Shown here piece by piece: positions 55,190 through 56,568 of a DNA stretch of 64,000 nucleotides. The DNA comes from Tistrella mobilis (lineage in GTDB: Bacteria > Pseudomonadota > Alphaproteobacteria > Tistrellales > Tistrellaceae). The notes beneath the pieces are model-generated. The model worked only from the letters and a program-made list of their open reading frames with translations. It did no database searches and was not told the DNA's origin. The first letter of the stretch is position 1. Each line of letters begins with the position of its first letter. The stretch lies in the NCBI RefSeq assembly GCF_039634785.1, contig NZ_JBBIAB010000001.1:1-64000 (forward strand), given 5' to 3'. A program made the translations under genes and the position numbers.

Positions 55190-55339
55190 GGCCCTGCGTC
55201 GATTTTTTGCACTGCGGTGTGCGTTAACGACTCTTAAACAATTGAACCCTTATGCTACAGGGTGCGTCCGAATTGGCGGATGCACCCTGCGCCGGTGATG
55301 CCGGCGCCGCGTATGCAGCAGAGTTGTCGGAGGGGTCGC

Positions 55340-56353
55340 GTGGAATACGCGGAACAGACCGATCGGTCGGAATCCCACGCACAGGCTGCCCTCGGACTTC
55401 TCAAATCCCACGCAGTTGCGCCAAATCCGATCAATTATACGGTGGCCTATGTCCACGATGCCGGTCGCGATCCGGAACTGAGCCGGGCGATCGACGGGCT
55501 GTTGGCCGATGGCGGGCAGCTGACCCCGGATTTCCTGCGGGAAGCCTTCGAGCGGCATTTCGGCATGGCCCGCGAGGCCCAGGCGGTTCGCGAGGGCGGC
55601 GCCCGGCTTGCGGCAGAGGCGGAACGGGCGCTCAGCGCCGCGGAAGGCGCCCGCTCGGCGCTCGACACGGCCGCCGACGAGGCCCAGCGCTTGGCCGAAC
55701 GGCTGGAGCAGGGCGACACGATCGATCCCCGCCGCCTGGCCGAGGCGGCCCGGGGGCTGGCGCTGCTGGCCCGGCGCACGGCCCAGCGGACCGAAGGCGC
55801 GGTGCGTTCGCTCGATGCCGCCACCGATCAGATCGGCGGTGTCCGTCGCGATCTGGACAAGGTCCGGCGCGAACTCGCCACCGATCCGCTCACCGGTCTT
55901 GCCAACCGCCGGCATTTCGAGCTGCGCCTGGGCGAAGAGATTGCATTGGCCCGCGAGACCGGCGACCCGCTGACCGTCATGCTGGTCGATGTCGAGGGCT
56001 TCGACGCCATTGCCGCCACCCATGGGCCCGGCATCGGCGACCAGGTGTTGCGGCTGGTGGGCAAGACGCTCGCCGACGGCGTGCGCGGACGCGATGTCGC
56101 CGCCCGCTTCGGCGCCCAGCGCTTCGCCGTTGCCCTGCCCCATACCACCGAAAGCGAATCCGGCGCCATCGCCGAGCAGATCCGCAACATCGTCTCCGGC
56201 CGGCGGATCGTGCGTCGCGACAATCGGGAAGCGGTGGGCCGGATCGCGCTCTCGGTCTCGCGCGCGACCCTGCAGCCGGGCGAGGATATCGGCCGGCTGA
56301 TCGCCCGCGCCGAGGCCGGGCTGGATGGCCGCCGCGTGCGCAGCGCCCGCTGA
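55340..56353 (+). CDS. GGDEF-domain protein with degenerate active site and intact I-site
   Basis: 337 residues from GTG 55340, with GGAGG seven bases upstream. The N-terminal helical region includes NYTVAYVHDAGRDPELSRAID, recognisable by YTVAYVHDAG, and a coiled coil (about 80-180). The GGDEF fold begins at TDPLTGLANRRHF (181-193). The signature loop reads GAQRF (258-262) instead of GGDEF, and the metal-binding DxDxFKxxND is replaced by DVEGFDAIAATHG, so cyclase activity is unlikely. The inhibitory-site motif RxxD (R249-D252) lies exactly five residues before the loop, as in I-sites, so the protein could bind c-di-GMP as a receptor. Confidence 0.85.
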   Translation: MEYAEQTDRSESHAQAALGLLKSHAVAPNPINYTVAYVHDAGRDPELSRAIDGLLADGGQLTPDFLREAFERHFGMAREAQAVREGGARLAAEAERALSAAEGARSALDTAADEAQRLAERLEQGDTIDPRRLAEAARGLALLARRTAQRTEGAVRSLDAATDQIGGVRRDLDKVRRELATDPLTGLANRRHFELRLGEEIALARETGDPLTVMLVDVEGFDAIAATHGPGIGDQVLRLVGKTLADGVRGRDVAARFGAQRFAVALPHTTESESGAIAEQIRNIVSGRRIVRRDNREAVGRIALSVSRATLQPGEDIGRLIARAEAGLDGRRVRSAR

Positions 56354-56436: not shown

Positions 56437-56466
56437 TGATCCACTCAGCGCCGGGCCGCGTATCCA
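56437..56466 (+). promoter_or_regulatory. Candidate RpoE/ECF11 promoter of rpoE-chrR
   Basis: TGATCC at 56437-56442 equals the -35 element of ECF11 (RpoE-ChrR) promoters. After 18 bases comes TATCCA at 56461-56466 as a possible -10. It lies directly after the terminator and 37-103 bases before the possible sigma-factor starts. Autoregulation is usual for this group. The -10 match is only partial. Confidence 0.55.
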
Positions 56467-56568
56467 TCGGGTAAAGGAACCAATGGCCTGAAAGGCCGGT
56501 CCATGACCGATGAGACCTGCATCCGTCCGCGCCTTGCGGCGCGGGGAGGAGTCCTGTTAGATGGCGCC

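Follow-up and report, generated by a model that had tools for sequence, protein, structure and literature searches.

What might a GGDEF protein do once it has lost the residues with which c-di-GMP is made? The question is raised by a gene in the window (the whole 64,000-nucleotide stretch of Tistrella mobilis DNA analysed here, part of a 6.16 Mb genome). A preliminary description had presented its product, hereafter the window protein, as unable to make c-di-GMP and as a possible c-di-GMP receptor with an intact inhibitory site (I-site) and a long coiled coil ahead of the GGDEF domain. Degenerate GGDEF proteins are a known group, of which the window protein is a further member. The features discussed below are listed in Table 1.

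Table 1. Features of the degenerate GGDEF gene and its upstream region (window positions).
Feature	Position	Strand	Remark
TTAA-N6-TTAA, CtrA-like box (tentative)	55224..55237	+	116 bp upstream of start codon
Shine-Dalgarno-like GGAGGGG ahead of GTG start	55329..55335	+	identical in three Tistrella genomes
Whole gene: degenerate GGDEF protein, DgcB-like family, 337 aa, GTG start	55340..56353	+	
N-terminal region, residues 1-62, common to family, no Pfam family of its own	55340..55525	+	
Two long helices, residues 63-123 and 130-180, probable coiled coil	55526..55879	+	AlphaFold model
GGDEF domain, residues 182-328	55883..56323	+	
Leu203 at PleD R313 position (I-site residue from partner domain)	55946..55948	+	
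Lost metal/substrate motif DVEGFDAIAA, residues 217-226, first Asp retained	55988..56017	+	
Pro230, replacing a His invariant in 109/109 relatives	56027..56029	+	
RGRD, residues 249-252, I-site core motif	56084..56095	+	
GAQRF, residues 258-262, replacing GG[DE]EF	56111..56125	+	
Gln280 at PleD R390 position (third I-site residue)	56177..56179	+	
C-terminus shortened, without the family's YxAKRxGRN segment	56324..56350	+	

The window protein scores far above the threshold of the Pfam GGDEF family (PF00990; 99.6 bits, cut-off 23.8), and the scan found GGDEF only, with no receiver, EAL or other domain. To place its altered residues we used a class-wide family search of 385 genomes, which returned 112 matches at E<=1e-30 in 104 genomes: 3 from Tistrella and 109 others, all of which were read. 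Rows kept among the 109 despite flaws were L073 and L075 (in-frame stop, L075 also without most of the N-terminal region), L031 and L090 (cut by contig ends) and L131 (matching residues 155-328 only). The loop begins GG[DE]E in every one of the 109 non-Tistrella relatives, and none of them shows a change at either Asp of DxD, the FKxxND Asn or the GH His. Where the window protein has DVEGFDAIAA, most relatives read DIDHFKxFND. All three Tistrella genomes carry the GAQRF loop, the substrate motif D[VI]EGFD[AT]IAA and Pro in place of His; 12 of the 36 columns conserved at 93% or more are changed in Tistrella, against at most four in any other row. When 29 loci of one order were added (two re-fetched), each of them with GGEE, GG[DE]E was present in 135/135 distinct sequences; 4 of the 34 matches in this extra sample lacked a locus and were left unread. 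As judged from the alignment, the loss of the active site in Tistrella is more than chance (loop kept in 109/109, lost in 3/3).

The window protein retains D217 and D234 but lacks the signature of an active diguanylate cyclase, namely GG[DE]EF, the second Asp of DxD, FKxxND and the His. Could it make c-di-GMP all the same? Some altered loops do work, such as the AGDEF of Vibrio cholerae VCA0965 mentioned in an excerpt of PMC3974145. In the window protein, however, both acidic loop residues are lost (Q260, R261), together with D219E, K222D, N225A, H230P and the C-terminal basic segment, whereas in the excerpted text of PMC7885107 dgcB E261Q and pleD E370Q each fail alone to support signalling. 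We regard residual synthesis as highly improbable. Translation and alignment bear out the altered loop and the lost DxDxFKxxND motif as first described, and the sequence strongly supports the loss of cyclase chemistry and, with it, a gene encoding a catalytically dead pseudo-diguanylate-cyclase.

Degenerate motifs turned up in two further GGDEF proteins. L203, a second family copy in genome G417, keeps GGEEF but has a degraded substrate motif (EIENFRAFKE, with GA instead of GH) and GKTG at the I-site; its paralogue in that genome, L175, is intact. The window's own genome has a second degenerate GGDEF protein (L015, G000:C6:231737-232954) with LLADEF, the motif GLNDFGAVNE and then an in-frame EAL domain.

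The great majority of the 112 family matches span about residues 5-328 and are co-linear over their full length, which places the window protein in a DgcB-like family of the Alphaproteobacteria. Its top PDB match is DgcB (6ttr/6tts; 6ttr E 8e-22 over residues 158-329). With the DgcB segment alone as query against this genome, another GGDEF protein scored marginally higher (84.1 bits) than the window gene (82.8), so that a relationship to DgcB proper would depend on the match of the family over its whole length. The identity of 6ttr itself can be read from a published dgcB insertion at nt 827, whose pieces, as given in an extract of PMC11481889, encode TTLEE and, in a different frame, EAASVVA. 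If the loop's first Glu is counted as residue 261, the structure has EAASVVATTLEE at codons 270-281, which puts nt 827 at the junction; this fit supports 6ttr being Caulobacter DgcB. Because the numbering fits, the inactive laboratory allele dgcB E261Q (described in part of PMC7885107) corresponds to window residue 260, which is Gln in Tistrella. With the position that was mutated to make DgcB inactive altered here, any remaining function must be non-catalytic.

DgcB (CC_1850) of C. crescentus resembles the window protein in its co-linear helix and GGDEF domain and in nearly the same numbering (E261 versus Q260). It differs in being an active cyclase with GGEEF and APPR in place of RxxD, whereas the window protein has a dead site and RxxD. 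Among NCBIfam models the best score went to SiaD (NF038266), the match running from the helix into the GGDEF domain, but its 97.6 bits fall far below the cut-off (290); unlike the window protein, SiaD is also active.

We then considered the I-site. In PleD, according to an excerpt of PMC7288161, it consists of R359, D362 and R390 together with R313 of the partner domain. The PleD GGDEF domain aligns with the window protein with no gaps over I-site and loop, and its four positions correspond to R249, D252, Q280 and L203, so that 2 of 4 are present; the two absent arginines have neighbours, R282 and R205, that could take their place. PleD differs from the window protein in being active and phosphorylation-driven, with all four residues in place. 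The I-site called intact at the outset is therefore so in its RxxD core, which stands exactly five residues (VAARF, residues 253-257) before the loop as had been stated, but not in the two further arginines known from PleD.

How informative is that core? RxxD occurs in 18/109 relatives and KxxD in 66/109. The KxxD rows usually have Gly250 (64/66), often Arg251 (35/66), and Q280 as their commonest partner (26/66). RxxD rows have another residue than G250 in 16 of 18 cases (G250 in 2/18), and R280 in 13/18 versus 6/91 elsewhere. This association has a Fisher p of 7e-9, yet supported branches hold one independent pair, so it is a pattern that is phylogenetically not established. On the family tree, a quick one with many weak branches, position 249 changed at least 30 times, D252 at least 11 times and RxxD at least 10 times, compared with a single change of the loop. 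Within the window's genome, RxxD was counted by eye in 11/15 other GGDEF domains with intact loops. The window protein contains 3 Lys and 46 Arg, and at four of the six columns in which Lys is commonest (at least 40% of rows) Tistrella has Arg. From the family background and this K-to-R drift, the chance of finding RxxD can be put roughly at ~0.57. By sequence, the RGRD/Q280 of Tistrella looks like the common KGRD type with K249R. Since RxxD is common by background, it is weak evidence for c-di-GMP binding.

The proposal of a receptor of the PopA type, in which the dinucleotide would bind at R249xxD252 and the signal would pass through the helices, has to be weighed against these counts. The exact motif is constant in 3/3 Tistrella genomes, as is nearly everything else, and a dead domain under strong purifying selection (see below) would suit a receptor. 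There are precedents: PopA of C. crescentus also combines a degenerate GGDEF domain with RxxD (part of PMC5052742), and purified dead WspR with GGAAF still binds c-di-GMP in vitro, as stated in an excerpt of PMC2270323. The window protein, however, has Q and L for two of the PleD arginines, further residues of the I-site that distinguish it from PopA as well. PopA has receiver domains before its GGDEF domain, and the Pfam scan detected none here. The high background of RxxD, its absence from DgcB and the GKTG of L203, the one further member observed to have a degraded substrate motif, also speak against a receptor, as does the R280 that usually accompanies RxxD in the family and that Tistrella lacks, an association that is itself not phylogenetically established.

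The preliminary description had held that relatives losing RxxD as freely as GGDEF would count against a receptor; RxxD is absent from 91/109 relatives and GG[DE]E from 0/109. The relatives, with RxxD labile and the loop invariant, lend the idea no support; they look like active enzymes and are thus no test of a receptor confined to Tistrella. We consider a receptor possible but not favoured, at a probability well short of even. A narrower version, in which Tistrella's only DgcB-family cyclase, of the kind located at the flagellar stator in Caulobacter, became a c-di-GMP reader at the same place, catalysis being lost and K249R creating RxxD, seems to us improbable; if true, a producer would have become a receptor where it stood. 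It is easy to label a degenerate GGDEF protein that carries RxxD a c-di-GMP receptor on the motif alone. The family-wide comparison indicates that RxxD, common by background and labile, says little, whereas the loop is invariant.

A gene that has lost its catalytic residues may be decaying, and twelve near-invariant columns are gone and the Tistrella branch of the family tree is long (1.57 changes per column). We therefore compared the gene among Tistrella genomes. Searching the order gave three genomes, all of this one genus, each with one match at E<=1e-30 and hence a single family copy; the only named full match to the window protein is that of Tistrella mobilis KA081020-065 (98% identity over all 337 residues). 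The frame is open in 3/3 genomes, and dN/dS is 0.060 against T. mobilis and 0.071 against the other Tistrella species, within the range of most neighbouring genes. Values for the N-terminal half were 0.057 and 0.052, and for the GGDEF half 0.064 and 0.090. Substitutions number 5 and 12 in 337 residues; residues 228-271 have none, which is unsurprising given these totals. The gene is kept under purifying selection. Because dN/dS is 0.06-0.07, we conclude that it is a conserved pseudo-cyclase rather than a decaying gene, and a relic is hardly credible. The three genomes thus offer a natural experiment, in which a cyclase-family protein under purifying selection is altered at the position that laboratory work mutated to abolish DgcB activity.

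What, then, might be selected? We propose that the window protein is a coiled-coil protein without catalytic function that works by contacting other proteins, a reading we judge about as probable as not. Its ancestor would have been an ordinary cyclase of the DgcB-like family, as supported by sampled relatives that are all intact. In this reconstruction the single copy of the Tistrella lineage lost the catalytic loop, other active-site residues and the C-terminal basic segment, and the gene was then retained under purifying selection. The protein may dimerise through the helices ahead of the GGDEF domain. The predicted helices agree in part with the long coiled coil described earlier, but a break separates them and the AlphaFold model (the window protein and the T. 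mobilis copy as input) is of low confidence (pLDDT 54.9, pTM 0.33; pLDDT 73-85 over residues 91-160). In its simplest form, action by contacts would consist in holding whichever partner an active family member docks on. The flagellar stator is a candidate by analogy with Caulobacter, where DgcB joins stator subcomplexes and drives attachment through its cyclase activity (excerpt of PMC7885107); this Tistrella genome has MotB_plug (stator-type) genes. A protein acting by contacts would need neither c-di-GMP synthesis nor c-di-GMP binding, and its RxxD would mostly be a side effect of descent from KGRD in a protein poor in Lys and rich in Arg. Of 17 N-terminal columns conserved at the 70% level Tistrella keeps 10, no particularly high share, which makes a docking surface that has stayed the same less plausible. 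The strong conservation of the GGDEF half would suit a domain that binds a ligand just as well.

One such ligand could be GTP. The dead GGDEF domain of Caulobacter CC3396 (PdeA) has a regulatory role and binds GTP (part of PMC7288161), and the retained D217 and D234 would be compatible with a similar sensor. CC3396 is fused to EAL, though, whereas Pfam detects no EAL or other output domain in the window protein, and we expect neither feature of it. The Asn and Lys of FKxxND, the His and the C-terminal basic segment, all with a role in GTP binding in work on PleD, are gone. GTP sensing therefore appears very unlikely, and contact-based action remains our preferred reading.

The gene lies between cobT on one side and an ECF sigma factor/ChrR pair on the other, so that cobalamin and ECF sigma genes adjoin it, without flagellar ones, a setting that speaks against the reading we prefer. 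Among the family loci searched (most with flanks of ~1.5-2 kb), ECF sigma and ChrR genes next to the family gene occur in Tistrella only. A general cobalamin link of the family was rejected: cobU and cobD were near the family gene in 1/20 wider loci. That locus (L150, genome G029) has intact motifs, with cobU adjoining and cobD ~8 kb off, and echoes the Tistrella neighbourhood. A literature search for Tistrella together with GGDEF found no reports.

Upstream of the gene, the CtrA-like box is the single match to TTAA-N6/7-TTAA within the window, and it is identical, with a conserved upstream block, in the three Tistrella genomes. An N6 form of the CtrA box is described for Caulobacter podJ in an excerpt of PMC4287350. 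TTAA-N6-TTAA is not enriched genome-wide (14 sites versus 29 for the reversed control); it lies upstream of the gene in 7/109 relatives, whereas an AATT control does so in 3 and shuffled sequence predicts 1.34. The box would tentatively suit CtrA control of the degenerate GGDEF gene, for which both the genome and the family lend weak support.

Downstream, the box TGATCC...CGTA at 56437-56462, 41-66 bp ahead of the ECF sigma gene at 56503, is conserved in the three Tistrella genomes. It resembles the promoters known for ECF sigma factors that have a ChrR partner, and self-regulation of the sigma gene through it is possible.
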